The notes beneath the pieces were generated by a model that saw only the letters and a program-made list of their open reading frames with translations, was not told the origin of the DNA and searched no databases. Shown here piece after piece: positions 39,555-63,279 of a DNA stretch of 64,000 nt. Within the stretch, counting starts at the first letter, position 1; the number at the start of each line of letters is the position of its first letter. A program made the translations under genes and the position numbers. The stretch comes from Xanthostigma xanthostigma (Eukaryota; Arthropoda; Insecta; Raphidioptera; Raphidiidae). The DNA lies in assembly GCA_963575645.1 (NCBI GenBank), contig OY754469.1, positions 22,896,001-22,960,000 of the forward strand, in the 5' to 3' direction.

Positions 39555-39560
39555 CACGAC
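39555..39560 (+). repeat. Polinton target-site duplication, left
   Basis: The hexamer cacgac directly precedes the left AGTAGTTGAT terminus and matches the hexamer that follows the right terminus. Six base pairs is the known Polinton duplication length. Confidence 0.93.
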
Positions 39561-39597
39561 AGTAGTTGATAGGGCGATTTAGGCAGACATAGCCCCG

Positions 39598-39650
39598 CAG
39601 GTAGCCCCCCCCAGGTAGCCCCCCCCCAGGTAGCCCCCCCCCAGGTAGCT
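39598..39650 (-). repeat. C-rich minisatellite in left TIR
   Basis: Four copies of caggtagc separated by runs of 8-9 C give a 14-17 bp period, about 40 bp from the tip. The right arm has five copies. Such a G-rich array (on the outward strand) could form G-quadruplexes. Confidence 0.9.
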
Positions 39651-39916
39651 CTCGACCTTCTAGAGATTCACACCATATCATCTCACAGAGATTTATCGTT
39701 GCCCGATTTACCCCCCCCCCTCCTGTAACACGCGTTCCCATTATTATGTTACAAGCTCTCCTATAGGAACTTCCTGATAAATAATCTTTGTTAATATTTT
39801 TTCTTCACTTTGGTAAATTCCCTGTAATCTATGGTTAATTCCTGATAATCGTTGTTATCCTCCCCCGCTGTCCTGCTTGAAAGACATTGAAAAAAGCTAG
39901 AAAACCGGGTCGGCTT

Positions 39917-39998
39917 CCGGCTCGGGATTCGAACCCCCGTGTGACTTCCACAGCTTTGCGGAGACAAGCGTTTGTCCACGCGGCTACAAACAGTCACC
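39917..39998 (-). other. tRNA-like sequence in left TIR
   Basis: On the minus strand, reading towards the element tip, an A box (tagccgcgtgga, 39986 to 39975) and a perfect B box (ggttcgaatcc, 39935 to 39925) are spaced about 40 bp apart. The length between them, with a possible extra arm, resembles a class II (Ser/Leu-type) tRNA. The T arm and acceptor pairing are imperfect, so it is a tRNA-derived sequence rather than a clear functional tRNA. An identical copy is in the right arm. Confidence 0.6.
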
Positions 39999-40559
39999 GT
40001 GAAAGAGACTTAAATGTGTGTACAGTTACAATAAGATCCATGGGTGGCGACCATGAGTGAAACCTATAGATGACAGTCGTGCACTCTTCTGATCATTGAA
40101 GGTCATACACTTATTTACAAGCCACATGCAAAGTATGAAAAGGTGGATCACAGCATTGCAATACCCAGATAATAATATATTATACAGACTGTTTAATACG
40201 GCTGTGTCTTGTTATCAACTACAAATTTAATATGCATTGCGTTATAATTGGAATGGATTATAAGTAGGTTATATTAATAATGATTACCAAAGAATATATA
40301 TTTAACATTTTATTAACATTAAATTCTCTTATTTATTTATTTAAACATCATATTAATATAAAATTCTACCTAGTAGCTTTTTCATATAGGTTCAGACAGG
40401 AATACGTTTTAGCGGTCCGATAGAGGGACATTTATTTTGTTTTTATGTTTTTAGTAAACAGTACAAACAGACTGACAGAGGGACAGAAACATTTTTTCTT
40501 TTAGTGCGTAAAGTTATTGATGTAATTGAGAAATTAACTTGATCAGGTTATTATATCTA

Positions 40560-40700
40560 TTATTATATATATAAAAAATCTCGTGTCACGATGTTCGTCC
40601 GGGCTAATCTTCGAAACCACTAAGCAATTTCAATGAAATTTTATACATGTGAAACCGGGACGAGCCGTTAGTATTATATAAATCATAAATATTAGAAACC
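40560..40700. repeat. Interspersed repeat fragment in the Polinton
   Basis: The phrase aaaatctcgtgtcacgatgt followed by tcgtccgggc and cactaagcaatttcaatgaa matches a repeat opening that I know to be common in insect genomes. It lies between the left inverted repeat and the first gene, and probably inserted after the Polinton. Confidence 0.4.
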
Positions 40701-40773
40701 ATGCTGCAATAAAATTAATATTTAACTTTCGAACAAGTGTTGACAATAATCTGCAGAGATACTTTTTAAGGGA

Positions 40774-40802
40774 AAGAGAGAGAGAAAGAGAGAGAGAGAG
40801 AA
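40774..40802. repeat. GA microsatellite
   Basis: A run of gaga/gaaaga units ahead of the first Polinton gene. A similar GA tract lies just after the polymerase gene (52492-52514), so GA tracts mark both gene-flanking regions. Confidence 0.8.
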
Positions 40803-40946
40803 TTCCCATGTCACTATTTTCAAAAAACAGCTCGTAAGAAATCAGATTATCCGAGCATTGTTTTTGTTGAAAAGTTTTTGCAAAGGAAGAGAGACTTTAT
40901 CGGTTCATATACCGCCCTAGTTTATTTGACTTGAATATTAAAAAAC

Positions 40947-40980
40947 TATAAATACAACGTTAAACTAAAAAAGAAACAGT
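40947..40980 (+). promoter_or_regulatory. TATA box and initiator of the 127-residue gene
   Basis: TATAAAT at 40947-40953 is followed by ACAGT at 40976-40980, putting the initiator A 31 nt after the first T. The arthropod initiator consensus is (A/T)CAGT. A start here gives a leader of about 54 nt before the ATG at 41032. Confidence 0.6.
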
Positions 40981-41031
40981 AAGCATTGGGCTTCCGGACA
41001 GTCAACAACGGAGAAGAATTATAATATTAAC

Positions 41032-41415
41032 ATGGCAGATAATAAGAAATTTGAGATCATCCACGAGAGTGTAAACAAAGTTAAACGTTTTGGAATAAAC
41101 GGTAGACGTTTGGTTTTTAAAATCAAAGAAGAACCTAAAGGGAATACAGGCGACTCCGTTTTATGGATCAAAAGTGCAATCAACGAGGTCATAGAATATA
41201 TTACAAGAGAACTGACACCTGAAGACTACGTGGGAATTAGCTTTAACAGCTTTGATCACGCCACGGGTAAAGAAGGATATCTACCCTTTCGAAAAGCTAA
41301 AAATTTAACACTTGGAGACGTATGGGGTATTCTAAGCGGAATACATCAATCTTGTGGACAAGCATTTAGCACAGATAAATTTCAGATGAGTGTTACATAC
41401 GTCAGGAAACCATGA
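41032..41415 (+). CDS. Stand-alone PolB N-terminal-domain protein (Polinton)
   Basis: This 127-residue protein aligns over nearly its whole length with residues 44-153 of the polymerase encoded 7 kb downstream. Shared signatures include 'WIK-(S/E)-(A/G)-INEVI', '(P/E)-(D/S)-Y-(V/M)-GI-(S/T)-FN', 'FR-(K/Q)-A' and 'GDVW-x-I'. No metal-binding or catalytic motif is visible. The same domain begins many insect Polinton polymerases, and its function is not known to me; roles in protein priming or DNA binding are guesses. The start codon follows a TATA/initiator pair and no upstream in-frame ATG is closer to it. An AATAAA lies at about 41588. Domain duplication within one element, or loss of the rest of a second polymerase gene, are both possible origins. 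The frame is open throughout. Confidence 0.85.
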   Translation: MADNKKFEIIHESVNKVKRFGINGRRLVFKIKEEPKGNTGDSVLWIKSAINEVIEYITRELTPEDYVGISFNSFDHATGKEGYLPFRKAKNLTLGDVWGILSGIHQSCGQAFSTDKFQMSVTYVRKP

Positions 41416-43735
41416 AGTAATTAATATGTATTATTTAAGTTTTAACACTGAGTTTTCTTAAGAATATTATGTATGTATGTTATGAATACTAAGACATAAA
41501 TTTTAAGAATATTTTGTAATATATATGTACCTACTACTTAACTGATACTTCTGACGCATTCTATGCTCTTTTTTAGTTGCAAAAGTGAATAAAGTAGGTA
41601 TTATTATTATTATTGTTATTATTATTATTATTATACAATTAATAAAGAAAAAATAAAGAATTTAAAAGACATTTCTACCGTTTTGTTATTCAGCCTATAT
41701 ATTATTTAACGATCTTCTGTGCAAACTAGTAGTGCATTTATTAACTATGCAAGCTTCTTTTATAATAGTTTTAAAATTTTTAAAAATTCAATGTTGGGCG
41801 GTTCAACTTTGAACGGTTCTTATTATTGGCATAACAAATCTACTTCCTTTTTTGTTTATATATTGTAATTTTTTTCTTTTTTGTATTTTTCTATACTAAA
41901 TAAAAAAAATTTTTATATCGTTCTAACCGCAAAAAATACCTGTTACAAGTAATCACAAAACATTTCGATTACTTTTTTAATTACTGCAGTGCTCTTCGTC
42001 GAATACAGCATATATAGATCACAGGTTTTGGTATTTTTTCATTTAAGTGTTCAACGACTTGAGATTATGGTTAGTAGGACATAATTCTGGAGAAAAGAAG
42101 ATAAACAACTCTACGTTTGCTTATATAGCTCAGAGACCGGAAAGTTTATCACTAAACTGCAGGAACTGTTCTTTCCAATGACGTACATGCATTTACCGAG
42201 AGAGGGTTGAGGTTTGGAAAAAAATAAAGGTTGAATAGGATAAATGTATATTAATTTATATCTTATTTTTGCTAGGCATGGACGGCTCTTTTCAATGACA
42301 GACAGTTTCACTTCAATGTCATATCATCGAGAGAAAGGTTAGCTAAAAACAACGACCTCTTTTGAAATCGATATGAATATTAATTATATGTAGCGACAGC
42401 ATCTTCAGTTGTTTATCAACATTAACAGTTCCATATTTTCCACGAAGCAACCTTATATTGATGAAAACTGACCCTGTATTGCTGAAAGTAAACCTCTGTA
42501 TTTGATGAGAGCAGTTGTGTATTGATGAAAACAGTCCTTTAGTGCTAAAAATAGACCTGTTTTTGTTGAAATCAGTCTTTTATTTGCTGAAATCCCTATA
42601 TTTACTGAAAGCAATCCTGTATTTGCCGACAGCAGTCCTGTATGTGCGGTAATTTTTTCTACTGATTTAGGCTATGCAAATAATATCTGTTACTATTGTA
42701 AAAGGACACCAAGATTTAAAATCTTGATTTTTTAATTAAACTAGCGAGAGAGAGAAACGTCTCAAGTATGAACATAGCTATGGAGTATTGAACTCGCAAC
42801 ACAATCACGGACATATTATATGGGCTCAACATCTTAGAAAAAGAAACATTTAGGAGAATTAATAATAATTTGTTAGAAGAAATGATGACCTAATTAACAA
42901 ATCCCCACTCACACTTGATACATCTAAGGTCTTTTTGATCTCCTAGTAAAGACTTATTTTTGGTTGGAGATTTAAGCGAATGTCTTTTTATTCCTTCCAT
43001 CATGGCCCTAAGTTAAATAAAAATATATTGTCAACAGAGTTTTTTTTGTTTCAAATTTTATTTAGATTATAATATATTATGTATATAGGAGAAGCGGTTG
43101 GAAATGAATAAAAGATTTTAAGTATTTTTTTTTAATTGTATATATTAATCATAAGTGATACATAGCATTTAGTAATGAAAGCATATTATAAAATACAAAT
43201 CACTACATATTTCTAAAGCCGGGTAAATCTTCTCCAACCAAGAGTCATGGACTTTCACGCAGCCCATTTACAATGTAGTTCTTCGTTACTGCTGCTGATG
43301 GTCATGTTTTAGATCTCGACGTCATCACTTGTACGTTTCGTCAATTAGTTAGGACCTTCCTCGGAACGATATCGAGTATGTCTTGATACAGGCAGATGAC
43401 TTTCTTTTTTTTCAAAAAAACTGTGTCTGACGTGTACTTATTCGAGAGAATAGCCTCGATTTCTGAATTCAGGGCAATTATATAGCTTCTCTTTTGCGCG
43501 TATTATTGTTAAATATTTTTTAGAGTTACGCCGTCCCACTTTTATCTCTTAAGCAATTCAGTTTCGATTCAGTAGACGTCATGAATCCTTAAGTCAATTT
43601 TTCTTTTTCTTTTTTTCATTTGATGTATAACCGCTGATGCTTCACTTATACGACTTACTGACGCCTGATTCCTCGACATAAGCTTTTGTTTATCTATTCA
43701 TTTTGATTCGAGTTATATGCATTTTATTCACAAAC
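41416..43735. other. Polinton interior without open genes
   Basis: The stretch begins with polyadenylation-type AATAAA words and an ATT microsatellite (about 41600-41635). It contains the degenerate minisatellite listed below. No Polinton core gene is recognised on either strand. Confidence 0.5.
42452..42648. repeat. Degenerate 19-23-bp minisatellite, about nine units
   Basis: Units of the form ttgctgaaagcagtcctgta recur with many changes: ttgatgaaaactgaccctgt, ttgctgaaagtaaacctctg, ttactgaaagcaatcctgta, ttgccgacagcagtcctgta and others. The period is 19-23 bp. It lies between the two small Polinton genes. The copies are too diverged for recent expansion. Confidence 0.75.
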
Positions 43736-44401
43736 TTATTTGATCAAATCCATTTTCCTGAGCTGTTGCACTATCGAATGAATTTCGTCTTTATGTTCCG
43801 ATTCGCCCCCGTCTTCATACAAGGCCTTCAATCGGTCGACTAATATGTTCGGATCTTCAATATCATCGTAATTACTTCGAGAGTCGTCATTTTCGTCAGA
43901 ACTATGTGAGGAAATCGACTCTTTACAGCTCATTTTCTGTCTCTCTTCATGACAATCGTTGTCTCTTTTAACTTGTTTCACCGAATTTTCACCTTCTCTT
44001 TTATCACATTTAGAGCGCAGAGGTTGAAATAGCTTGGAAATGATTTGTCTGTACTTGAAACTTCCGTCACCAGAGATTTGATCTGATGATCTGTAGTTGC
44101 GTTTGTGAGCGCTGGTCAGGAGCAGAAGAGATTTATACAACACCAAGTCTTTGGATTCATAATTTAGAGGTCTTCTCTCAAAAAGTAGTTCCGCAAGAGC
44201 GTCGGTTAGTTCAAACGTACGATTTTCATCAATGATCAATACTTTGTTTATTATGCGTACAGGCATACAGCCTAGCATAAACTTCCTATCTTCATCGTCA
44301 AATCTAACACCAAATCTGTCGACTCTGCGTCCGTCATAGTACAGAACACAGTCGTCGTCGCTTCTTCCATTTCCTACTTCGTTTTGCTTTTCGCTCGACA
44401 T
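43736..44401 (-). CDS. Polinton protein of unknown function, 221 residues
   Basis: The N-terminal half has a compact conserved-looking region: 'FGVRFDDEDRKFMLG' at about 30-44, then a short beta-rich stretch, 'LLFERRPLNY' near 92-101, 'YKSLLLLTSAHKRNY' near 108-122 and 'KYRQIISKLF' near 136-145. The order 'YGIRY-x-MLG ... LLTNAH-x-Y ... KY-x-II' matches a family I recall as common in arthropod Polinton-like elements and of unknown role (I believe DUF8207-type; not verified). The C-terminal part is charged and Ser/Asp-rich, probably disordered, ending with a short amphipathic helix ('IVQQLRKMDLIK'). It is divergent from, and opposite in strand to, the other two genes. The ATG follows a TATA/initiator pair. 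The frame is open throughout. Confidence 0.75.
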   Translation of the reverse strand: MSSEKQNEVGNGRSDDDCVLYYDGRRVDRFGVRFDDEDRKFMLGCMPVRIINKVLIIDENRTFELTDALAELLFERRPLNYESKDLVLYKSLLLLTSAHKRNYRSSDQISGDGSFKYRQIISKLFQPLRSKCDKREGENSVKQVKRDNDCHEERQKMSCKESISSHSSDENDDSRSNYDDIEDPNILVDRLKALYEDGGESEHKDEIHSIVQQLRKMDLIK

Positions 44402-44442
44402 TTTATTATTGTTGCAGTTGCCCGGTTTGCAGTCAGACTAAC

Positions 44443-44478
44443 ACTGGTTGAAAGACTCTTAACTCTAGCTATATATAG
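44443..44478 (-). promoter_or_regulatory. TATA box and initiator of the 221-residue gene
   Basis: On the minus strand, TATATATAG starts at 44477 and CCAGT begins at 44447, with the initiator A at 44445, 32 nt from the first T. The predicted leader to the ATG at 44401 is about 44 nt. The layout matches the two plus-strand promoters of the element. Confidence 0.6.
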
Positions 44479-44537
44479 ACTTATTAGAAAACTATTACAA
44501 AAACAAACACACAACAGGTACTAGACGGGCTCATAGC

Positions 44538-44572
44538 AGGGTTAAAACAGCGTTAAAACAGGGTTAAAATAG
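44538..44572. promoter_or_regulatory. Three 11-bp iterons upstream of the minus-strand promoter
   Basis: gttaaaacag starts at 44541 and 44552, and gttaaaatag at 44563, an exact 11-bp period. They lie about 60-95 bp upstream of the TATA box of the 221-residue gene. One helical turn of spacing suggests a protein-binding array, but chance expansion is possible. Confidence 0.45.
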
Positions 44573-46050
44573 GTGCATAATATCTACAAAACAGTGTATT
44601 AACTGATACAAGACAAATACTAGAATCAAGTACCAGACAGACGCAAAAAAAAATTACCAAAAAAATGCACAATAGCTACAAAACAAGTCCAAACAAGACT
44701 TGCAAAATACATACCATATGCAAACTGTACAGGATGGCTCATAACTATAGTATTTTATTTGAGTAGTAATTAATTTAACATCATAACGTTTAGCTACTGA
44801 CAAATAAATAGTTTATTATAGTAGAGAATAGTGCATTAGTGAGTGATGTATTGTGAAGTGAACAGTTTGGAGTACTGCAAAACTAATAAATTAATCAAAC
44901 TTATTGCAAGGGCAATTGTAGAAGAGGTGAAAGAAGAAGATATTAGTGAAGTGAAAGGAAAGAAACTGCAATACGAAAAAGGGTAAAAATAGAATAGATT
45001 AACTAAAAGCTGCGAATTTAGAAAACTGGCATTAAAAAACCCAAAAGATAGTTGAAAACTTACAAAAAAATAACTGATTTGTTTTAAATTTCTGTTGATG
45101 TAAATTCAGTCACTAATTTAGAGTAATGACAGCAAGATGTGCAGTTCTCACAAAAAACAAAATTACAGATAATTCTCTCCTTTTTAGCTACAGGATGTAG
45201 TTTAAGAAGACTCACGTACATCTCCTTCGGCTTGAAAAAAAAAATACTATTTCAACTAAATCAGAATAAGCAAATTGCTTGGCACATATTTTTATAAAGA
45301 AGGGATTTAACGTTCCAAAAGCACCCTTGTGTTGTAAATATTGCGTAACAGGTTTAACATTTCTGTTTTTTTTGCTTAAAGAAATGACATTTTAAGGTAG
45401 CTAACCAGAGATTGAATTATGGTTAATTTAGTAAACCGTAGAGCGAGGTAAATATTGCTACTTAACCAAAAAATATATATCAAAAATAAACTAAATCATT
45501 TACTAAAGTTTGGTGACCAAATTGCATGCCACACGACTAAAATATTATGAACCAGTCTTTAGACGTTGGTGCAAAAATGCAAGAGAAACAGTTATGATTA
45601 CATTACAATCGTTAAGCTGACCATATTATTATATATAAAGACCGATTGATACCTACATAACTTTCGATTATTGTTTCTGCATAGCTGGATTATGGTACAG
45701 AAAAATGGTTCTATCACTTAGGCCTTTACAAGATAGATATATTCGTATACTATCAACTAGATCTGTTATTATCATAATATTCTAAGCCTCGTCAATTGTA
45801 AATCTGACACAAAACGTCAGTACCTATAATATGCAATGTAGTCACAATGTAATATCATTAATACTTTGGAAACGTTTAAAAAGAAGTCATTTTCAATATT
45901 TTACAGTCTGTTATTGAGAAAAGACACAGTGTCCTCGTACAAAATAAAAGTGTATAATGTTATTGCAGACATGTACTTATTTGCTTTGTTCAATATACAA
46001 GAGAAATGAAATCAAACACGTTTATGAAAACATTACGTGTACTTCTTTGA
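44573..46050. other. Polinton interior without open genes
   Basis: AT-rich sequence with no recognised Polinton core gene or clear repeat ends on either strand. Confidence 0.45.
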
Positions 46051-46051
46051 G

Positions 46052-46087
46052 TATAAAATCCATTGCAAGCGGCAGCAAATTATCAGT
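46052..46087 (+). promoter_or_regulatory. TATA box and initiator upstream of a possible PolB leader exon
   Basis: TATAAAA at 46052-46058 is followed by TCAGT at 46083-46087, with the initiator A 33 nt from the first T. This is the best initiator match of the candidate promoters. Downstream, a consensus donor GTAAGT begins at 46234, and an acceptor-like tttaattgtcttgcag ends at 48393, just before the polymerase ATG. Confidence 0.5.
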
Positions 46088-46233
46088 TCTCGGGTGATGG
46101 TTCAACTTATACAAAGCTACGGACAGTTAGTTTTATCAAGAGAATAATTCAGAAAAACCTATTACAGTGCAAGAACAGTGCCTCAATTTTGTGACAATTC
46201 TTGAAAAAAAACAGCATATAGACATCATAAAAT
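46085..46233 (+). other. Candidate non-coding leader exon of the polymerase gene
   Basis: The interval runs from the initiator to the donor GTAAGT (46234-46239) and has no long open frame. If it is spliced to the acceptor ending at 48393, the intron is about 2.16 kb and contains both TTAA-flanked MITEs. A separate TATAAAAG at 48349-48356 offers a simpler, unspliced alternative. This is inference from splice-site words only. Confidence 0.35.
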
Positions 46234-46464
46234 GTAAGTAAATAGGTATTTATGTAAAAATTATTACGTAGTTTTAAGTCTTTCATACCAAAATAGAAAA
46301 ATTGAAACAATTGTAACTTCACCCAGTCCCTATTTCCGTCTGTTAGTTGGCGGCCAGGTATAATACTTGCCTCGTAGCTTAAATTCCCGGTAGATTCATT
46401 TCTGTATTGTGTAGTGTAAAATACGATTTATTTTTTATTACCAGATTTTTTAAAAGAAACTTAA

Positions 46465-47364
46465 GCGTTTGCGCCACCTTGAGATTTTTAAAAAATCGAT
46501 TTTTTGGTCAATTTTTATACTTTTGAGAATATTTGAAGCGTTTAACCATTCCGAAATTCAAACTATTACCGAAGTGACCGTTCGAGTTGACCCCTAAATC
46601 AGATAGCGATCGGACCGTTACGAGATCCCAAAGTCTTGATAAAGGATATTACATGATTTTTTTGGGGTGTTTTGGACGCTAAAAAATAACTCAGATACCT
46701 ACATTCGTTGTCATAAATGCCGTACTTCTTTACATAATATTATATTTCTGTATTTTACTGTAGAATAGAGTACGCAAAGTTGGAACTATAGTTTATACCT
46801 ATTCAATTTGTTACAATCAGTTAGTTTTTCTTTTGCGTTTTTCTCGAAACGACTCTTTTCAAACCGGTGTACACGATATCTCAAGATCAACTTAACCAAT
46901 TTAATAATAATAATTTGCAACACTCACTTTTTTTATAGTATTATTATCTGAAAAGTGACACGATTTTTTGACTAGGTGTCATGTTCAAAAGTTATAAATT
47001 TGTAAAGTCAAAATTTTGATGTAAATTCGAGTTTTTTTTCAAACAGCAGTCTTTCTACACAAAAGAAATTACGTCACATTTTAGCTATTGTCCTTCTAAA
47101 TAAGAAAAAAAGTTATGTTTCAAACAATGCCTAAGAGAAATCAAGTACACCATCAGGAAAAAATTTCAAAAGAGGGTCCTACGTATCGGCTCATATCTCC
47201 GCCCATTTTCAATTTTTAATCGTTTATATTGCAAATTGTTCGTAAAACTACTATATACTCGTATATGTTTAAAAGAAAGATCATTTTATATACTTAATGG
47301 CTACGTCAAAAATATGTTTTTTTATTCCTATTTTTTTCTGAGCGCCAAGGTGCCGCATAAATCC
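46465..47364. mobile_element. TTAA-flanked MITE (piggyBac-type target) in the Polinton
   Basis: TTAA lies directly outside both ends (46461-46464 and 47365-47368). The left end gcgtttgcgccaccttgag pairs imperfectly with the reverse complement of the right end (ggatttatgcggcaccttgg). A TTAA duplication is the known signature of piggyBac-like elements. The 900 bp has no frame. The terminal match has small length differences, so it is an old copy. Confidence 0.55.
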
Positions 47365-47502
47365 TTAATACTATGAAAGAATATGATTTTATTTGAAAAA
47401 TGTTTCTCTCGTATACAGTTTCTATTATGAACTTTATAGATGACAGCACTAATAAAGGTTATGATAAATAAGACAAAATGCCTTACAAAACAATTAAATT
47501 AA

Positions 47503-47975
47503 GGTAGTTCACCCGTGAAATGGCTTTTCTTAGGAATTTAATAAAATTGAAGGTTAATAAAATTGCTTTATAATATTTAATTTCAAAAAATGATTTTTTT
47601 TTTCTCCGACTGTAAAACGAGATATTAACAATCAAATTGTGCATAATTAACATACTGGAGGTATACCACGTATAAAGAAAACGAGTACATTCCAGAATAT
47701 CCCGAAAACGGTTCTTAGTATATTTCTTAAAAAAAATTAATGCATTGTAAATTAAAAAATTATAAATTTTTTTTTGAAGAAACTGAATTTTTACCCGATT
47801 TGTTAAAAAAATATAGACTTTTAAAATCAAAATATTTTTATTGTACTTGCATTTTTAACTGTATAGGAGTGTATCTGTATATTAAAGCTTATATTAGATA
47901 TTTTGGGTACAGTCTCTTACAAAAAAAATACAAGTCTTTAGCACGGAGAATTTACGACTGTCGCGGTGAACTACC
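47503..47975. mobile_element. Second TTAA-flanked MITE in the Polinton
   Basis: TTAA at 47499-47502 and 47976-47979 flanks the ends ggtagttcacccgtgaa and the reverse complement of cgcggtgaactacc. The 473-bp interior is AT-rich. Frames at 47483-47830 (-) and 47740-47979 (+) fall inside it and are not genes. A piggyBac-type origin is inferred from the TTAA only. Confidence 0.65.
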
Positions 47976-47979
47976 TTAA

Positions 47980-48348
47980 CTTCAGAAGAACGCAACAGTA
48001 TTGACTATTTTTGAGTGAGCGTTTATTATTTTTTTTAATTATTCGAATGCGGTTTATTCCTGTAGCGAGAAAAAATTTATCTTTGAAGTATGTCTATTGT
48101 TATTATTATAATAGAAATATTTTTTTTGTTTATACATAATATTGCGTAATACATTTACTTTTGTTTGTTATTGTCCTGAAAACAACTCATTTTTTTGGCA
48201 TAATGCAATAGGTTATGTGGCATTTTGAAAGACGAAAGTACGATAATAATTAATTTATGATGCAAATGGTTTCAATCAGTGCATATGTTCCACATTTTCC
48301 CGCAAGGCCTTACTTATAACTACACATTTTTAAGCAGACATTTGTTTG
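47980..48348. other. AT-rich sequence ahead of the polymerase gene
   Basis: No gene or repeat boundary is supported between the second MITE and the proximal TATA box of the polymerase gene. Confidence 0.45.
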
Positions 48349-48393
48349 TATAAAAGGAAAGATCAAAACTAAATTTGTTTAATTGTCTTGCAG
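48349..48393 (+). promoter_or_regulatory. Proximal TATA box and acceptor-like site of the polymerase gene
   Basis: TATAAAAG at 48349-48356 lies 95 nt before the ATG, but no CAGT initiator stands about 31 nt after it. The pyrimidine-richer tttaattgtcttgcag ends at 48393. The site could therefore be an alternative promoter, or the end of a leader intron. Confidence 0.4.
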
Positions 48394-48450
48394 CTGTCAA
48401 CAACAACCAGATCTGCCCTAATTATTATTATTCGACTATAAACTGTAATA

Positions 48451-51400
48451 ATGGAGCAGATTAATAAAAACGAAACTGTCTGCACAGCTGAGGGAAAAGA
48501 AATCAACACTCTAGAACACGTTGACAATAATAAAAAGAAAGAAAAAAAGTACGAAAAAGTTAATGAAGAACATAGTTTAGTGAGAAAATTTGATATATCG
48601 GGAAAAAAGTTAAGCTTTAAGCTGAAAGATATACCTCTGGAAGCTAACGGACCCGAATGGATTAAAGAGGGAATAAATGAAGTTATAACTGATTTACTAG
48701 AAGACGTGGATCCGGAATCATATATGGGTATCACTTTCAACATAGCTGACAAGGATGCTAAAGGACCAGGTTTTCTATCGTTTCGTCAAGCACGTCATGT
48801 GACCTTTGGTGATGTTTGGAATATAATAGGTGCCATTTTTCAATCCAATGCAGGCTCTCAAAACACCGATACGTTTGAAATGACCGTAACCTCATTCAAA
48901 ATACCAGGGGGTAGAGGAAAAAGGAAAACGAGTAGAAAATTCAATTCCTTTGATGAAGAATGTCTTAAACGGAAAGGTATTGTTGTTATTAAAAACACAG
49001 ATAGCTTATGTCTTCCGAGAGCTTTGGTGGTAGCGATAGCTCAAAAAACCAATAATCCCGAGTACGTAAACCTCAGAAAAACGGACAGTCTTCAAAAAAC
49101 CAGAGCGCTTGAGCTTCTGAATGAAGCCAAAATTTCTATACCCGAAGAAGGCTCGGGAATTACAACCCTGCAACAATTCCAGGCACATTTAAAAGATTTT
49201 AAAATAGTGGTTTATAAGTACGCTACGAAAGGCCGTCAACTTTTTTATGAAGGTCTGAACGAAGAAGCAAACTGTAGAATCAATCTTTTATATCACGAGG
49301 GACACTATAACGTTATAAACTCTCTCACAGCAGCATTTGTGTCCTCATACTTCTGTGAAGATTGTCATACACCTTACAACGATAAAGATAAACACTTATG
49401 CAAAAATATGTGTAAAAGGTGTGAAGGATCATGTGTGAAGAAACAAGGCGACACTTTCTTGAAATGTTATGAATGTAACAGATCTTTTAAAGGGCTATCG
49501 TGCTTTCAAATTCACAAAGAAACAGAAATATGCGATAAAAAACAAAAATGCAGTGAATGTTTCAAAATTATAAATAAAGGTCTGAAAAAAACACACATCT
49601 GTAATGAAAACTATTGCACAATGTGTAAATCAAGCTATATAAAAAAAGACGAAACCACGCATCTCTGTTACATACAAGCTGATAATAAAAAACCACCAGA
49701 AACAGGATACGCATTCATATTTTTTGATGTTGAAACACGACAGGAAAGACCTTTATCTTTGTATGATCAGAATACTATGGTACATGAACCAAATCTAATA
49801 GTTTTCAAAATAAGATGTTTTAAGTGTATTGATAGCGAACAGGGTGATACTTGTCAACTGTGCGGTAGTGTAGAAAAATATATATATGGTGAGAGTTGTG
49901 TAAATTTCTTCATGGAATATGTTCTAGGTATAAGAGAAATATATAAAGAAGTGGTGATTTTAGCACATAATTTGCAAGCTTTCGATGGAATATTCCCCTT
50001 AAAATACATAGTAGAAAAAACATCTATAACACCTGAATTATTGACGAAAGGCACAAAAATAATCATGATGAAAGTAGACAATGTAAAATTCATAGATTCC
50101 CTCAACTACTTTCCAATGTCTTTATCGGCGTTGCCTAAAACTTTTGGGCTAAATATAGATTTGAAAAAAGGATACTTTCCGTACATGTTTAATAAAAAAG
50201 TTAACGAAAATTACATTGGACCTATGCCTGACATTAAGTTCTTTGAGGTAGATAGGCTGAAGCCAAAATCGACAACGCAGAAATACAAGGACGCAGAATT
50301 AACACAACAGATTAGAGAAAACGATGATAACAGAGAGTGTTTTAGAAATTGGTATCATCAAAAGTGTGAACAAAACTACGTTTTTGATTTTAAAAAGGAA
50401 CTGATAGAATACTGTAAAATGGATGTAAAAATATTAGAACAGGCATGTTTAAATTTCCGAAGACTTTTTCTTAAAGAATGCAACGTTTGCCCTTTTATTG
50501 AAGCAACAACTATAGCCAGCGCCTGTAATTTAATGTTTCGTCGATTATTTTTAAAACCTGAAACAATCGGTCTAATACCTGCTCAAGGATATAGATTGGC
50601 TGATAAGCACTCGGCTATAGCCTTGCAATGGTTGATCTGGGAGGAAAAAACGAGGAATATTTCTATTCAACATGCTGGAAACTCTAGAGAAGTTGTCATA
50701 CCAGGTTCTAGATTAAGGGTCGATGGATACTGTAACGCAACAAAGCAAGTATTTCAGTTTCATGGCTGTTTTTGGCACGGTTGTCCTTCTTGTTTTACCA
50801 CTTCAAGAGAGTTGTCCTTATTCAGACATTCGAACGTAACTTTTAACAGTTTATATGAAAAAACGAAAAACAACACAGAGAGAATAGCAGCTAAAGGTTA
50901 CGAAGTTGTTGAAGTATGGGAATGTGCATTTAAAAGAATGTTGGAAAATAAACCAGAAATGCAATGGACAGCGATTCATCCCATTATGAAATTTACGCCT
51001 ATACTTTCTCGCGATGCGTTCTACGGTGGAAGAACTAGCAATATCGTCGAGTACTATAAAGTTAAAAACAACGAAAAAATATATTATTACGACATTTGTT
51101 CCCTATACCCTTATATATGTAAATATGGTCGCTTTCCTATCGGTCACCCAGATATTTATATAGGAAATGAAGAGTGTATGCACCGTATACACGAAGAAGG
51201 ATTGGCAAACATGTGTGGTTTGATTAAATGTGACGTGTTACCTCCTGAATCATTGTATTTTCCAGTTCTTCCAGTGAAAATGCATAGCAAATTAATGTTT
51301 TTACTATGCAAAACCTGTGGTGAAAATATGCAACAAACCGACTGTACACACACAGTTGAAGAGCGAATGCTAACAGGCACGTGGGTCTTTGAAGAGATTG

Positions 51401-52416
51401 CAAAAGCTGCAGATTTGGGTTATAAAATATTAAAAGTCTACGAGATATGGAGTTATAAATCTACCAAATATAATAAAGAAACAAAATTTGGTGGTTTGTT
51501 TTCTGATTTTGTAAATAAATTTGTCAAACTCAAGCAAGAGAGCGACGATTGGCCATCTGGATGTGTCACTGAAGAGCAGAAAAAATCATACATTGACGAA
51601 TATTTGTCTTCAGAAGGTGTGCAACTAGATTACTCTAATATTGAAAAAAATCCGGGGCTTAGAGCTTTAGCTAAGTTAATGCTTAATAGTTTCTGGGGAA
51701 AATTTGGTCAAGTTGAAAGGTTAGCAAATACTACTATAATTAGAAACCCTGTTGATTGGTATTCGTTATCTGCAAATCCCGCAATAGAAATAAATTTTGT
51801 AAAGAGCATTAATGATGAAGTAATAGCTGTAAATTATCAATACGTTGATGATTCACTATGCAAACTAAGAACTGTTAATCCTGTTATAGCTAGTTATGTT
51901 ACGGCTCAAGCAAGACTTGAGTTGTATAAATACCTGGAAAAATTACAAGAAAAATGTTTATATTTGGATACCGATTCTACAATATTTGTTACACATATTG
52001 AAAATCCTATAAAAACAGGTGAATTTTTAGGTGATATGACAGACGAACTTTGTAAAGATTTTGGACCAGGCAGTTATATAGTGGAATTTTGCTCAGGTGG
52101 TCCTAAGTCTTATGCTTACGTTGGTTATTCACCTGAGAAAAAGATATATTTTTCCGTAATAAAAGTAAAAGGAATAACATTAAATTATACAAATTTAGAA
52201 AAAGTTAATTTTAATGTCATGAAAAACTTTACTCTAAAAATAAATACAGACAACGATAAAGTTATTGTCTCTGATAAATCGTTTAGACGTACACAAGATT
52301 TAAGTATAATCACATGTGAAACCACAAAGACTTTCGCAACAAATTCAGTAAAAAGAAAATTTTATGATGATTATTCTTTGCCATTTGGCTATAAAAAAGC
52401 ACAAAAATTATCATAA
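48451..52416 (+). CDS. polB: Polinton protein-primed family B DNA polymerase
   Basis: The 1,321-residue protein would replicate the linear element DNA by protein priming. In order: a Lys-rich start; an N-terminal domain (about 44-153) shared with the 127-residue protein; an OTU-protease-like region with 'NTDSLCLPRAL' (182-192) and 'EGHYNVI' (283-289); a Cys/His-rich zinc-binding region (302-406); exonuclease motifs FFDVETR (424-430), HNLQAFDG (506-513) and YCKMD (654-658); a VSR-endonuclease-like insert with 'FHGCFWHGCP' (770-779); and polymerase motifs DICSLYP (881-887), KLMLNSFWGK (1075-1084), YLDTDS (1171-1176) and 'GGPKSYAY' (1216-1223). All expected catalytic acids are present. Insect Polinton polymerases usually run about 1,000-1,300 residues, so the length is full. 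The ATG at 48451 is the first in the frame after the acceptor-like site. The frame is open from end to end. Confidence 0.96.
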   Translation: MEQINKNETVCTAEGKEINTLEHVDNNKKKEKKYEKVNEEHSLVRKFDISGKKLSFKLKDIPLEANGPEWIKEGINEVITDLLEDVDPESYMGITFNIADKDAKGPGFLSFRQARHVTFGDVWNIIGAIFQSNAGSQNTDTFEMTVTSFKIPGGRGKRKTSRKFNSFDEECLKRKGIVVIKNTDSLCLPRALVVAIAQKTNNPEYVNLRKTDSLQKTRALELLNEAKISIPEEGSGITTLQQFQAHLKDFKIVVYKYATKGRQLFYEGLNEEANCRINLLYHEGHYNVINSLTAAFVSSYFCEDCHTPYNDKDKHLCKNMCKRCEGSCVKKQGDTFLKCYECNRSFKGLSCFQIHKETEICDKKQKCSECFKIINKGLKKTHICNENYCTMCKSSYIKKDETTHLCYIQADNKKPPETGYAFIFFDVETRQERPLSLYDQNTMVHEPNLIVFKIRCFKCIDSEQGDTCQLCGSVEKYIYGESCVNFFMEYVLGIREIYKEVVILAHNLQAFDGIFPLKYIVEKTSITPELLTKGTKIIMMKVDNVKFIDSLNYFPMSLSALPKTFGLNIDLKKGYFPYMFNKKVNENYIGPMPDIKFFEVDRLKPKSTTQKYKDAELTQQIRENDDNRECFRNWYHQKCEQNYVFDFKKELIEYCKMDVKILEQACLNFRRLFLKECNVCPFIEATTIASACNLMFRRLFLKPETIGLIPAQGYRLADKHSAIALQWLIWEEKTRNISIQHAGNSREVVIPGSRLRVDGYCNATKQVFQFHGCFWHGCPSCFTTSRELSLFRHSNVTFNSLYEKTKNNTERIAAKGYEVVEVWECAFKRMLENKPEMQWTAIHPIMKFTPILSRDAFYGGRTSNIVEYYKVKNNEKIYYYDICSLYPYICKYGRFPIGHPDIYIGNEECMHRIHEEGLANMCGLIKCDVLPPESLYFPVLPVKMHSKLMFLLCKTCGENMQQTDCTHTVEERMLTGTWVFEEIAKAADLGYKILKVYEIWSYKSTKYNKETKFGGLFSDFVNKFVKLKQESDDWPSGCVTEEQKKSYIDEYLSSEGVQLDYSNIEKNPGLRALAKLMLNSFWGKFGQVERLANTTIIRNPVDWYSLSANPAIEINFVKSINDEVIAVNYQYVDDSLCKLRTVNPVIASYVTAQARLELYKYLEKLQEKCLYLDTDSTIFVTHIENPIKTGEFLGDMTDELCKDFGPGSYIVEFCSGGPKSYAYVGYSPEKKIYFSVIKVKGITLNYTNLEKVNFNVMKNFTLKINTDNDKVIVSDKSFRRTQDLSIITCETTKTFATNSVKRKFYDDYSLPFGYKKAQKLS

Positions 52417-55400
52417 TAAAAATAATTAAAAATAAATTATTGCATTCTGTTTGATAATATAAAATAAAAAAATAACCTTTGTATCGTTTCAGGGAGAGAG
52501 AAAGAGAGAGAGGATATTTTCAACTATTGTAGAACATATTTTCAAAATAATACTTAAAGCATGATATTTGCGCTTCTTTTGCCTAATAATAAGTAAAATA
52601 TTGTTAGATATAAGTAAAGTAACATAGTTCTTACATAGAACACATTATTGTAATACATTATATTGTAAAATGTTATGAACCTTGCTTATTGATGTTTTCA
52701 ATTATTATCATTTATAACGGTGTTTGAATTATTATTATCTGTATGTGTTGCTGTTAATAAAAGGAATAAATATTTACTCAAATGTCTTTTTTTTTTTATT
52801 CATTAAGATTTACCCCTGCTTATTTTCAGGATTTTAAAATCTTAAAAATAGCATAGACGTAAATATTGTTGTGTGAGCTCTGTACCAACCTCTGCTATAA
52901 ATGGATCGGTTTGAAAAGGTAACGAACTGTCATATCAATTTTGTGAGCAAGCCTTGACTTTACATTGTTTTTGTGATGTTATAAACGTTGATATTGGTTG
53001 GAACTATTTTGTAACCGTCTTTTGTGCATTAAATATCAATTGTCAAACTCAAATGTCAATTAAAGATTTCAAAAATGAGGATTATAACCAGAGGATAAGA
53101 ATTTTATAGTCTTTAGGCTGCACCTCAACGATTTGAGGTATAATATAACGAATTGTTGTTATGAAACGTAAAATATGTCATGTTAAATGTCTTTGTTTAT
53201 CAAAACCATGGCTACGTTTTTTTACTGACATATTCCTTTTTTTATATTAGAAAATATTGCTTTCGTTGTTCATTTTTTTCGCCAAAACAAACGTGAAATG
53301 AATAAAGAATTGTCACTAGTCATTATTAAACAGAGGCAAACGTTCCAAAATGCTAAGTGCGCAATAATCTCTTTATAAATTGTGCACAAACGATCACAAA
53401 TTGTATGGAACTATTAAAGGGCCATTCGACAACCCCTGATGGCCTGATACCACGGCTGGAACGCTTTTTTTATCTACTAAGCATGAGCGTGACGATAATA
53501 ATGCCTTCTTTTTTAGAGATATTGGAACAAATCCATTCTCTTAAGATTAGTGGAGAACCTATAATTAGTGCTAGCATTTTACACTAATAGATACACTGTT
53601 ATAAAAAAAAATAGTCTATTTGCATATTTTTTTTAAACGACTTTAAAGTCATAGTTATTATTGCCCTATTTTTTGAATAACAATAAATACTGACACGTGT
53701 ATCTAACATAATATGACAAACAGTCTGCCTCAGCCTCAGCCCTCAAGTGATCGCAATACTTTCATGTAACGTATAGGTTAGGTAGGGGAATATCATGAAA
53801 GGACTTCAGGCTTCTTCGACATGAAAGTACGACTTCGCTTAATGTTTGCACATCATCCACATTTAAACAAAAAATATTAAAAAATAAAAGAACAGTTAAA
53901 ACTTGAACGTGTCTAAAATTACTTTACAAATTTCTTTAAAATAATTTATAGGTCGGCCTTTCTTGATAATTTTCATTATGTATATGAAGAGGTTACGACG
54001 ACGACGACGACGATGCAAGTCAAAGAAAACGTTTTTATTTCAGTTATTTGAGAGATTAATTTTAATAAATTGGGCCATCATTCAACAATATTATTACTTC
54101 AATGTCATTATATAGTATGTATAAAAATATATCAAATAAATTAAAATTACTGATTTCATTATCACCTGCAATGCATACAATTCAAAGATTACATTTCGCT
54201 CATAATATAGCTTAATAAATAATAAGTATTGTACATGAACATTAGCATAATGTTTTATGCTATAACATTTTTTTGTTGCATCATTTAAAACCTGCTATGT
54301 CTGCATGTCGTTTTGTTCGATTCACCTTCAGTCATTACCCCGATACAAGAATCGTGTTTGTTTGTCGTATATTTAAATATCGATTTATCCAAAATGTTTG
54401 GCGAGACAAAATTTATCATCCAAAAATAAATACGAATCTCTGAACTTATAAAGATTGCTAAAGCTCTTTTTAACGAACTCAAATAGTTCTCAGGTGTTGT
54501 AAGCCAAGAACAAATTAAAAGATCAATTATTGCAATTTATTATCAGTAGGTGAGTAGCTGAACCTCTGTCTGTCTTCGGTGTTGTCTCGATTTTAGTTCG
54601 TCGTTAAACGTCTAACCTACATATCAAAAATGTCATGAAAAGCTTTCAAATATGTTATTTTTAAACCCTATAAAAAACTCGTGATTTTTTCAAAAAAATG
54701 TGTTTGGTCGTCTGAGAAACTATGTGTGTGTGTGTATGTGTGTGAGTTTTACAATTATATTAAAATGAAAAGAATAACAATGAAGTGATCAATCGTGTCA
54801 AGTCGTTGCCTATGTCCAAGATGATGTTACCAGTAAAATTTGTATTAGAATGATACTGCATGTAGGTGCTTTGCGTCACCCCTAACTTTATTTATTTTCT
54901 GCATACTTTACTGTTTTTCAATTATGTTTCAGTACTGACATTTTTTAATTATTGGAAAATTTAATGTCTGTTTTTACCAAATAATATTTTCAAAATATAA
55001 TCTGAGACTGGCTAGGTACTTTAAAATTCCCTAATGCAGAATTGCCGTTATATATTAAGTATTCTCATGAGTCATGACCTTAGCTATCAAGTGTATATAA
55101 TCTATAACCTATCTAGTATAGAGTATTAGCATTGTAGTTAAATTAAATCTAATGAAAACATATTATATATTATATTTACTTATCCATTGTCGAAAATACA
55201 AATAATATGATATGTGATTGTCAAAGAAATCAAAGATATTGTGCTCTTGTGAGTTGTGTAGCATTTGTGATTTTGGTTGTAGTAATAAAGTGCCAAACTT
55301 TTTTGTAAACCCATAAATATAATGTTTTGTGACAACCTGTAAAACGCAATACCTGTACTCTGAGCATTTGACATACATGATACAGACAAAGGCGACCTTG

Positions 55401-57958
55401 TTATATTATTGTTAATTCGATGTTGTGTTATTATCTTTTGGTTAAAATATTCTACATGTGTACTTACTTATTTTGAAATAATAAATAGGATTTCCCATTT
55501 GCAAAAATTGGATATCATGTCGCGACTTTGTATGAAAAAATTGTCAATGTCAGAGAATTCCTCATGTGAAATACAAGATATTAAAAACTTGTAAATGTTC
55601 CCAATTTTCAATAATAACGAAGTCAAATATCTGAAAAATGTGTGGTATGGAGATACAAATTTCCACTTTGCGTTAAGGAGGTTGAGGTGCAAAACGAAAA
55701 TAATGAAAAAAACCTCACAATTTCTCCACATAAATTATATAGGTATCATTTACAGATAATTGATTGCTCTACTGACATCGACACCTAAAAATTTATTATT
55801 CCTTTTGTTTTTGTAAATTAATTAAAATACAGCAACGCTGAACAGCGTCTGCCATCTGACGGCTTTAATTTTGAAACAACGTCAACTCTTCGATCTGCCA
55901 TCTGACCTTCATATTGTAATACAACAGACACAATGCTGCATACTGCCGTCTGACGGATTTAATTTTGAAACAGCGAGCAACGCTGAATAACGTCATAGCA
56001 ATGCTGCATGATGCCATCTGACGGATTAGCTCAACGCTTTTGCTACTTGCACCTCTATATGACAATTTTAGTAAAATATTTCTTCGATCTGCCATCTGAG
56101 CTTCATATTGTAATACAACAAAAAGAAGAACGTTATAAGCAGTGTGCAAAATTAGAAAGGAATTGAATACCCGCAATCATATTTAAAAAATAATTTTGTA
56201 AAGTGATAATTATTATACTTATTTAGTGCGAATAATTCGCACAGTTTTAATGTATAGCAAATAACCAAATAATGTCAGCAGTTCCAAAAACTATGTAAAG
56301 CATTGATGTTTTACGCATATTTTAATATTTTTTCGAATTTAATTAGGAGACTTTTAATAAATAAAAAACATGATTAAACATTAGTACTTTTCAATTATGG
56401 ACTTTTATTCTTGTCAAAGCAGCAACGTTGCAAACAAGTATGTGGCGAGAAATTCAAATATATTTAAGAAATGGAAGCATGTTATTTGAATATAATAAAT
56501 TATATACAGTAAAGATAAATAAAAACTTCCATATAAAACGTTTTTCCATTTTTATCAATATGTTTTGACTTTTGTATGCTTTTTTACTACAGCACACCAT
56601 CTAACTAAAATACGGAGAAATGCTAATGTATGTACGCAACGTTGCCGTTGCCAACTGTCAAATTTATGTTTTTTGTAAGTGATTTTTTTTAACTGATTTT
56701 TTTAATGATTTAATTTTAATTTTTATTGCTTCTATTTTATTTTTTTTAATTATTAATTTCAAGAAATTTGTAAAATACAGATATTTACATAAACTTTTTT
56801 ACGAAGTTTGGTACAAAAAAATTTCAAAAGTTAAGTAAATGATTGGGACTGTAACGCATCAATCTCCTTAAGCTTTGCCCATTGTGACGTCACTACGGTG
56901 ACACTTTTCTTAAATGTGTGTGATGTTCTCAATTCATTTTATTGACCGGCGTGGTTGTGAATTTACTTTCATTATAACAGCTGTATTATGCATATAAATA
57001 AAAGTATATGGTATATGTGACATCGTACACACACATATATAAAGGGTATGTAATATGCATCACCAGATTACGGAACTTTTTATTTATAAACAAGAGAACT
57101 ATTTTTTTACATTTGTAACGGTGATCTTTGTCACAAACATGCTTTCTGAATGAATCTTAAGTGTTCGTGATTAGTTATACTGCCGAAACAATGTTTATTT
57201 TTTTTTGAAGAAAAAATGTGTAATGATGTACACCTTAAAACATTGAATAAAACGACAAGACATTTCAAACATAAATGTTATTAACTTAAGTGTTCACTCA
57301 AAATGTAAAACAATTTTTTTTGAAATTTTTAAAAGCTATTTTTGTAATTTTTACACTATTTTAAATAATTTATTTAGATTAAATAATAAATAAAAATCTA
57401 TGGTTTAAAGTTATATGGTAGGAATGATACGACAATGATGTATTTCTAATTTATTTTGAAAGCATTACCTGTTGTTTGTTGAACGTTTAAAGAGATTATT
57501 ACAAACGATTGCTAAATGACCATTTGCTAATAATAATAAAAACCATTCTTTCGAACTTACAATTTCAACTGAGCTAAGATTTTACTTTCTGAGATTTACG
57601 GGCAATTTCGACTGTGTCTACTATGACTTCAATGATTGTACCAACCAACAAATAATACTATATATTTTTATAATATATTGTAGCTACAGCCTGCTGATAT
57701 TTACAGAACAGCTGTTATATTTTAGATGCAAACAGCACATTCAATAAACGTGTCGATATAGTAGTTACTCAGTTTTTATATGATAATCAAAAATTCTTTT
57801 TTGATTTATTATCGCGAACATCGTTCTAAAATAGGAACCAAATTTTGATTGCTTTTTTATTTAACTGCAACTGTCATCTGAGCATAGTGCATACCTTCAA
57901 AATATAATCTGTGTAAGCTTTCTACAGTTAACTAAACTGTCACGGTTTTTAGGTAGTT
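52417..57958. other. Right half of the Polinton without open genes
   Basis: This 5.5 kb holds AATAAA words after the polymerase stop (52429 and 52757), a GA tract (52492-52514), an ACG run (53997-54014) and a TG run (54724-54741). No integrase, ATPase, protease or capsid frame is recognised. Short frames at 53357-53587, 54285-54482, 55163-55389, 55409-55731 and 55865-56176 lack known motifs. Confidence 0.55.
55830..56130. repeat. Mixed direct repeats in the Polinton interior
   Basis: The phrase tgccatctgacgg with ttaattttgaaaca recurs at about 55851, 55945 and, in part, 56010. The phrase gatctgccatctgaccttca with atattgtaatacaaca recurs at about 55891 and 56089. The minus frame at 55865-56176 reads these repeats. 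It looks like an interrupted tandem array. Confidence 0.65.
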
Positions 57959-57960
57959 TT

Positions 57961-58530
57961 TGACGTGATAACGTCTTATAAATTAATGAATCACCAATAT
58001 TATAAATTGATAAAACACCGGCCGCATGCACGAAAAAGTGTAACGTAACGTTCCTAACGTTCGTAACGCGTAACGCGTAACATTCCGCCTGACCCTGTGC
58101 GTGCTTTTCTCGAAAACGGCCCTAACGATTTGGATGAAATTTACTGAAAAGGGATTTTGGGGGGCAAAAAATCGTTTTAGCTAGGTCTCATCTCTCGAAA
58201 AAATCGTTTTCTTACAAATTTTATCATTATAAAAATCAAATTTTTGACGTATGAAAATACTTAAATATTGTAAGTAGGTTTTGGAATTTTATATACTTAA
58301 ACAATAAAACAATTGTTTTCTAAATATTATGACAGTTAATCTTTGAGACTTAAATAAATACGGAAGAAAGAAAGTTAATAAAAAAAAATATTTTTTTAGG
58401 TGGTGAGTAATTTAATAAATAAAATTAACCTAAATTTGAAGCGAAAGATGCAATATCATAGATTCGAATGATTATAATTATTATATGTAGAATTTAGGTT
58501 ATGTATTACGGAATACGTTATCACGTAAAA
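57961..58530 (+). repeat. Dispersed repeat family R1, copy B inside the Polinton
   Basis: The block starts with acgtgataacgtcttataaa and ends with acgttatcacgt, so it has about 12-bp inverted tips. Its left 290 bp matches 8384-8640 closely (for example ggccctaacgatttggatga), apart from a short extra taacg-rich stretch at about 58043-58082. Since it lies between the Polinton genes and the right inverted repeat, it probably inserted after the Polinton. Confidence 0.75.
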
Positions 58531-58784
58531 CTATCGTCCGTAAACCGACTTTACAGACAACCAATTTTTTTATAACAAGACACCGCAGTATTAAACAGTC
58601 TGTATATCTGCGTATTGCAATGCTGTGAGCCATATTATCGCTTATGCATGACCTTCAATGATCAGTACCGTCTGCGCCTGTTTTGTTTTATATTTTTTAT
58701 TCATTATTACTTCATCTAGGTTTCACTCATGGTCGCCACCCATGGATCTTATTGTAACTGTACACACATTTAAGTCTCTTTCAC

Positions 58785-58866
58785 GGTGACTGTTTGTAGC
58801 CGCGTGGACAAACGCTTGTCTCCGCAAAGCTGTGGAAGTCACACGGGGGTTCGAATCCCGAGCCGG
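58785..58866 (+). other. tRNA-like sequence in right TIR
   Basis: An A box (tagccgcgtgga, 58797-58808) and a B box (ggttcgaatcc, 58848-58858) point towards the right tip of the element. Identity with the left-arm copy is complete as far as I can read. It may act as an RNA polymerase III promoter, or be a captured tRNA/SINE fragment. Confidence 0.6.
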
Positions 58867-59133
58867 AAGCCGACCCGGTTTTCTAGCTTTTTTCAATGTC
58901 TTTCAAGCAGGACAGCGGGGGAGGATAACAACGATTATCAGGAATTAACCATAGATTACAGGGAATTTACCAAAGTGAAGAAAAAATATTAACAAAGATT
59001 ATTTATCAGGAAGTTCCTATAGGAGAGCTTGTAACATAATAATGGGAACGTGTGTTACAGGATGGGGGGGGGGTAAATCGGGCAACGATCAATCTCTGTG
59101 AGATGATATGGTGTGAATCTCTAGAAGGTCGAG

Positions 59134-59207
59134 AGCTACCTGGGGGGGGGGCTACCTGGGGGGGGCTACCTGGGGGGGGGCTACCTGGGGGGGGGCTACC
59201 TGGGGGC
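59134..59207 (+). repeat. G-rich minisatellite in right TIR
   Basis: Five units of gctacctgg followed by 5-9 G occupy the last hundred bases of the element. The left arm has four, so the arrays have changed independently of the otherwise matching arms. Confidence 0.9.
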
Positions 59208-59238
59208 TATGTCTGCCTAAATCGCCCTATCAACTACT

Positions 59239-59244
59239 CACGAC
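59239..59244 (+). repeat. Polinton target-site duplication, right
   Basis: The hexamer cacgac directly follows the right terminus and equals the left flank. Confidence 0.93.
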
Positions 59245-63275: not shown

Positions 63276-63279
63276 TTTA

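Follow-up and report, generated by a model that had tools for sequence, protein, structure and literature searches.

Ends, target site and genes of the element

A 64-kb stretch of the Xanthostigma xanthostigma genome (C6:22896001-22960000, hereafter the window) contains, at positions 39561-59238, a 19,678-bp element that ends like a Polinton (Maverick) and encodes a family B DNA polymerase (PolB), and in which no integrase, packaging ATPase or capsid gene was found (Table 1; all genome searches were made in the 623-Mb assembly of 28 contigs). Polintons are marked by terminal inverted repeats (TIRs) starting with AG and by target-site duplications (TSDs) of 6 bp, and the element combines long AG-starting TIRs with the polymerase and with a 6-bp TSD at each of its three copies in the genome. 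An original prediction from the letters of the window had reported matching 14-bp tips, inverted repeats of about 655 and 667 bp, a CACGAC duplication and a full-length family B polymerase, and each of these was recovered: the identity of the tips extends to the outer 36 bases at both ends; the repeats, imperfect in their inner parts, measure 658 and 670 bp; CACGAC stands on both sides of the element; and the polymerase matches PF03175 (E value 4.1e-42) in a frame that is open in all three copies.

Table 1. Features of the element and its flanks, in positions of the window
Feature	Positions	Strand	Remarks
Left TSD, CACGAC	39555-39560	.	read from the flank
Left TIR, tip AGTAGTTGATAGGGCG	39561-40218	+	~658 bp
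Subterminal array of ~15-bp C-rich repeats (CCCCCCAGGTAGCCC)	39593-39649	+	
Stand-alone paralogue of the PolB N-terminal domain	41032-41412	+	127 amino acids (aa), 42% identity
221-aa protein, homologue of a conserved Polinton protein	43739-44401	-	
Dispersed repeat	46813-47370	.	77-79% to other genomic places
Dispersed repeat	47499-47979	.	79-84% to other genomic places
PolB, 1321 aa	48451-52413	+	N-terminal paralogous domain, OTU-like motif, exonuclease and polymerase motifs, Vsr-like stretch
Non-coding stretch common to the diverged C11 relative	52890-54136	+	~96% identity over aligned columns
High-copy repeat, ~600 bp	57957-58560	.	96-99% to at least 35 other places (40 of 5148 candidates scored)
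Right TIR	58569-59238	-	~670 bp
Subterminal array of ~15-bp repeats, right end	59135-59206	-	
Right TSD, CACGAC	59239-59244	.	read from the flank

Three genes are carried by the element, and besides them it holds no stop-to-stop frame of at least 140 aa. PolB contains all seven motifs sought (FDVET, NLQAFD, YCKMD, DICSLYP, KLMLNSFWG, DTDS and GPKSY), which we take to be Exo I-III, A, B, C and KxY, respectively, together with DSLCLPRA, read as an OTU-like motif and not matched by a Pfam OTU family, and a weak Vsr-like stretch at residues 763-825 (TIGR00632, E 3.3e-5, below the family cut-off). The 127-aa protein is related to the N-terminal domain of PolB (E 6.1e-23), and the paralogous pair differs at 48, 50 and 79 sites of codon positions 1, 2 and 3, with proportions of synonymous (pS) and nonsynonymous (pN) differences of 0.82 and 0.38, a pattern which shows that the pair has been under constraint since the duplication. 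The 221-aa protein, searched with the 220 residues after the Met, is 30-32% identical to the C-terminal part of a 336-348-aa protein of complete Polintons in this genome, the frame of which follows the ATPase frame in all three complete-Polinton loci examined; against the 348- and 337-aa proteins, E values were 8e-14 and 1.4e-14 by tblastn and 1.2e-14 and 1e-15 by phmmer.

Three repeats found elsewhere in the genome are nested in the element. Because the match of the high-copy repeat extends as far as the query does, its inner border with the right TIR is not fixed, and this repeat is possibly a young non-autonomous transposon. Tandem arrays lie on either side of the element, at 34571-35145 (83-bp unit, 6.9 copies) and 63279-63765 (163-bp unit, 3.0 copies).

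Sibling copies and recent movement

A genome search with the TIRs, as the original prediction had proposed for its repeat tips, gave nine matches that resolve into three elements: the window copy and two near-identical, full-length and equally gene-poor siblings at C5:3124091-3143769 (19,679 bp) and C9:32810453-32830133 (minus strand, 19,681 bp). Each has its own TSD, namely CACGAC in the window, GAGAGT on C5 and GTGGGA on C9. Within the comparable part of the 19,678 bp, the C5 copy differs from the window copy by 4 substitutions in 15,324 positions and the C9 copy by 2 in 15,325, which means tens of thousands of years at an assumed rate of 3e-9 substitutions per site and year; judged by this divergence, the element appears to have jumped very recently. 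Both siblings hold all three nested repeats (full-length matches, 100%), and the element therefore kept jumping after gaining them. Outside homopolymer runs, the left and right TIRs differ at the same single bases in all three copies, and the right end of each copy has an additional repeat unit, one base of which in the C5 copy is the sole exception. Each end was thus passed on in its own form, without homogenisation of the two ends during these jumps. A genome-wide search with a 26-base tip, allowing up to three mismatches, returned six sites, all of them ends of these three copies, and thus no autonomous sibling with the same tips.

Unoccupied sites bear on whether the duplications are real, as a fortuitous CACGAC match would be expected to leave empty sites without a single CACGAC. 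We joined 200 bp of each flank with one TSD copy for each of the three insertion sites and searched the whole genome (53 rows of matches; 40 of 2535 candidates scored, the three sites taken together). For the window site, at least 11 other places among the scored candidates matched across the join at 93-100% identity, among them C2:56946913-56947150 (100%). Because these matches cross the join, the window copy inserted into a dispersed repeat, other members of which have a single CACGAC, and the duplication of the window copy is a true one. Judged from their extent, at least 24 matches crossed the join of the C9 site at 79-84%, and no match crossed the join of the C5 site among the scored candidates.

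That the element is ancient wreckage, with ends and polymerase kept by chance and with copies made by segmental or assembly duplication, would fit its being mostly non-coding and partly composed of dispersed repeats. We find this scarcely credible, however, since the three copies have different flanks and different 6-bp duplications, unoccupied sites exist and the polymerase frame is constrained (see below); segmental duplication and assembly copies were rejected on the TSDs and the unoccupied sites.

Searches for the missing core genes

The lack of recognisable integrase, ATPase, protease and capsid genes was the striking point of the original prediction, which called for a comparison with profile models. 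In a first six-frame Pfam scan (X at stops, slices of up to 1633 aa, E 0.1, together spanning 40216-58600), no family outside PolB was matched, and the complete Polinton on C8, used as a control, yielded its integrase (PF00665, 1.2e-12), ATPase (PF04665, 7.5e-7), capsid (PF21738, 1.6e-63) and phospholipase A2 (PLA2; PF08398, 3.4e-14). Because Pfam missed the C8 polymerase in a long frame, positions 40216-46900 and 52400-57956 were rescanned in shorter slices (766-952 aa, E 1), while 46901-48450, 57957-58600 and the other five frames over PolB were covered by the first, long-slice scan. Only two matches emerged from the rescan, PF09870 at E 0.063 within the 127-aa gene and PF17382 at E 0.11; neither reached its cut-off, and both families are unrelated to Polinton genes.

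Similarly, 20 frames of local Polintons (16 from the C8 element and 4 from a second family) were compared with the whole element by tblastn and with its 693 stop-to-stop pieces (from overlapping slices, some counted twice) by phmmer without filters, and nothing significant was found besides the 221-aa gene. For the rve integrase, there was no Pfam match in the element scans, the best tblastn E value was 0.47 and phmmer had no match at E 1; as a control, the same phmmer run linked the C8 integrase to an integrase piece of a retroelement (1.3e-5). The best values for an A32/FtsK-like packaging ATPase were 0.065 over 38 aa by tblastn and 0.27 by phmmer, with no Pfam match, and those for a double-jelly-roll capsid were 2.6 by tblastn, where the C8 query frame is incomplete (315 aa), with no phmmer match at E 1. 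An adenovirus-like cysteine protease had no Pfam match in the element and none in the 16 C8 frames, so that this search is without a positive control. The reported lack of integrase, ATPase and capsid genes thus held in six-frame Pfam, tblastn and phmmer searches alike, and a hidden copy of any of the three in 40216-58600 was rejected on the Pfam slices, the 20-frame tblastn search and phmmer. A gene as diverged as the C8 polymerase could still escape detection, because single-sequence searches fail to link it to the window PolB (best BLASTP E 0.17, no phmmer match at E 1, differing motifs); on this comparison, the window PolB is of another sequence class than the family A polymerase represented on C8.

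An autonomous element, with a recombinase of its own that the profiles do not recognise, is quite improbable. A missing match does not equal a missing gene, Pfam having once missed a true polymerase, and TSDs of 6 bp are compatible with any integrase that cuts at such a stagger; yet no further stop-to-stop frame of at least 140 aa is available to encode such an enzyme, the short-slice scan gave the two weak and unrelated matches above, and the remainder is partly dispersed repeat.

Diverged relatives and selection on the polymerase

Relatives of the element survive in this genome as fragments on C11 (two copies), C10 and C26. On C11, PolB continues into the stretch corresponding to 52890-54136, where there is no frame of at least 120 aa, and the C26 relative covers 43627-47298, with the 221-aa gene and one further frame of 130 aa; aligned non-coding identity is about 96% for C11 and 91-93% for C26. 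In the complete C8 element, the ATPase frame begins about 185 bases past the PolB frame. Because the C11 and C26 relatives share these stretches, the common ancestors were already largely non-coding beside PolB and the 221-aa gene. As a separate observation, C26 (21,185 bp) bears at L052:1-7979 a 3.8-kb palindrome (arms 99.7% identical) of the diverged relative, corresponding to the 43.6-47.3 kb part and adjoining a fragment of a family-A-like PolB N-terminus; the palindrome may represent a fold-back, either in the element itself or introduced by the assembly.

With the expected synonymous fraction taken from the non-coding substitution spectrum, three of the seven PolB comparisons were tested, and each had an excess of synonymous changes: 28 of 60 against C11 (0.239 expected, P 1e-4), 14 of 32 against the shorter C11 copy (P 0.011) and 48 of 125 against one C10 stretch (0.248 expected, P 5e-4). 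The ratio of nonsynonymous to synonymous substitution rates (dN/dS) was 0.27-0.35 in six of the seven comparisons and 0.69 in the remaining one (101 codons, four changes). These substitution patterns show that PolB has been under purifying selection since the split from the C11 relative.

The strongest rival explanation ascribes the copies to a complete parent, now lost or unassembled, whose ends and PolB were the same, in which case PolB would be intact as the loss was recent. The window PolB had its own complete ancestor at some time, because it is unlike the family A polymerase, and only three copies were found, both of which suit such a parent. We nevertheless consider it unlikely, as the relatives, though about 4-9% diverged in aligned non-coding columns, share the non-coding stretches beside PolB and the 221-aa gene; an ancestor that was already gene-poor there, with PolB constrained since, counts against a recent loss. 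Moreover, the element has no trace of an integrase, ATPase or capsid, and a search of the assembly for further elements with these tips, or for an intact PolB of this kind outside the three copies (22 matches), was negative.

Complete Polintons in the same genome

A search with the C8 integrase found 49 places at 75% identity or more (52 of 117 rows), of which 45 are open and near full length and fall into two families, with 18 (343-350 aa) and 27 members (323-368 aa, mostly 356). The remaining 65 rows are 23-33% identical and, judged by their mostly long frames, are probably retroelements. Family A is represented by the complete element at C8:33905945-33924715 (tip AGTAGTTGGTTTTTACC, TSD AGGATG), whose tip recurs at three more family A left ends, and family B by C3:19377221-19395166 (tip AGTAGTATAATAGGCC, TSD CTCGTC). 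The window tip has eight bases in common with family A (AGTAGTTG) and six with family B (AGTAGT); within the 64-kb window, counting both strands, AGTAGTTG has four occurrences, of which two are the tips of the element. Families A and B are the likely source of an integrase in trans.

The element resembles these complete Polintons in its long inverted repeats, AGTAGT tips, 6-bp TSD, length of 18-20 kb, PolB and one conserved protein. It differs from them in that no integrase, packaging ATPase or capsid was found, in the sequence class of its polymerase (compared with family A), in its 221-aa protein, which is shorter and encoded on the strand opposite PolB, and in its extra stand-alone N-terminal domain.

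The C8 Polinton encodes a double-jelly-roll capsid and a packaging ATPase, and at L059:7900-8541, between integrase and capsid, the PLA2-like protein matched by PF08398 in the control scan. The three copies might accordingly have come from outside, packaged by a complete Polinton virus and integrated on arrival, and their near identity would suit this. We regard such an arrival as very improbable, however, because the diverged relatives are resident in the genome, which points to a lineage of long residence, and two pattern scans of viral contigs were without a match, although this is weak evidence.

On four contigs (C2:28738520/28746104, C5:13867052/13875615, C12:16348683/16358069 and C1:16111035/16119939), further PF03175 matches in open frames of 721-924 aa form inverted, diverging pairs with 7.6-9.4 kb between the members, as if another element were a long palindrome whose two arms each bear a polymerase.

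A probable non-autonomous lineage and its possible mechanism

In our interpretation, the element is a non-autonomous derivative of Polintons, with a replicase of its own and a borrowed integrase, a reading to which we assign a probability of roughly 0.6. An old non-autonomous lineage seems a better description than a freshly broken copy, because PolB has been under purifying selection and the gene-poor stretches are common to diverged relatives. The suggestion of a non-autonomous lineage in the original prediction is thereby strengthened by three recent insertions, the selection on PolB, the gene-poor stretches of the relatives and the presence of complete Polintons with related tips. Its mobility would then be supplied by other elements, as the prediction also proposed.

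Mechanistically, we infer the choice of helper (A or B), the priming by the 127-aa protein and the packaging of the copy. Replication would be carried out by the element's own PolB and yield a linear molecule whose ends are primed by a protein; the stand-alone N-terminal domain may assist PolB or serve as the priming or terminal protein. The integrase of a co-resident complete Polinton, more likely of family A with its tip AGTAGTTG, would recognise the AGTAGT tips and insert the copied DNA, leaving 6-bp duplications. The capsid proteins of complete Polintons might also package the copy, which is the least certain step. A bolder version, which we put forward tentatively and rate at somewhat less than even odds, is that of a long-lived 'replicon satellite', with its own replicase and a stand-alone N-terminal domain as candidate priming protein, for which complete Polintons in the same genome, with another class of polymerase, provide integration and perhaps packaging.

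Several points weigh against this interpretation. In the C8 control, PF03175 was unlisted for the 1072-aa PolB frame even at E 10 and appeared at 8.8e-25 in a 633-aa slice, a match also recovered in a separate genome search. The window tip is unlike that of family A past eight bases, and the ends read comprise one full A pair, three further A left ends and one B pair. The 221-aa gene has no significant constraint in the comparison with C26 (dN/dS 0.57, 12 of 40 changes synonymous, P 0.35). The relatives in the selection tests themselves carry stop codons, and the C11 pair, at 99% identity, counts as a single sequence, so that few independent lineages are represented, and the selection on PolB could partly predate the loss of the other genes. 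Finally, this PolB could also belong to a complete element that is missing from the assembly.

Relation to known elements and implications

Non-autonomous DNA transposons are usually described without a large constrained replication gene, unlike the element studied here. Its likeness to those mobilised in trans lies in cis-acting ends that are kept and an integration enzyme that is lacking (PMC6431247). The usual core set of Polintons comprises polymerase, integrase, ATPase, protease and capsid proteins (PMC4028283, PMC5718144), by which the element is a derivative with Polinton ends and not a complete Polinton. Adintoviruses carry Hexon and a chromodomain integrase (PMC11071296), neither of which was found in the element, so that it falls outside their definition as given there. 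Their PolB has an N-terminal OTU-like domain, to which the OTU-like motif of the window PolB, with no Pfam OTU match, is a possible likeness. Bidnaviruses offer a parallel in a replicase of Polinton origin that is separated from the Polinton capsid and integration set and accompanied by inverted repeats, and they have parvovirus-type capsid and helicase genes (PMC4061559). Parvovirus-type helicase and capsid had no Pfam match in the six-frame scans of the element (no positive control was run), and the element, as opposed to bidnaviruses, is integrated and flanked by 6-bp TSDs. Maverick consensuses 0.6-4.5 kb long, in which a polymerase or an integrase is the sole domain, have been reported as fragments (PMC8504770). 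A limited literature search, in the portions of text available, found no account of a Polinton that lacks an integrase yet has an intact polymerase and recent copies, nor any match to 'non-autonomous Polinton'. Overall, the element is a variant of Polintons outside the definitions of both complete Polintons and adintoviruses.

Polintons couple replication, integration and virion formation, and a jumping lineage that retains replication alone would, if our interpretation is true, separate these functions in nature. It would suggest that integration can be supplied in trans, point to the short tip AGTAGT/AGTAGTTG as the sequence that needs to match, and suggest that replication requires a supply in cis or a PolB that matches. 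The stand-alone N-terminal domain is a concrete candidate for the priming protein. The element would then be a case of natural parasitism among virus-like elements in one genome, comparable to that between virophages and the giant viruses that serve as their hosts.
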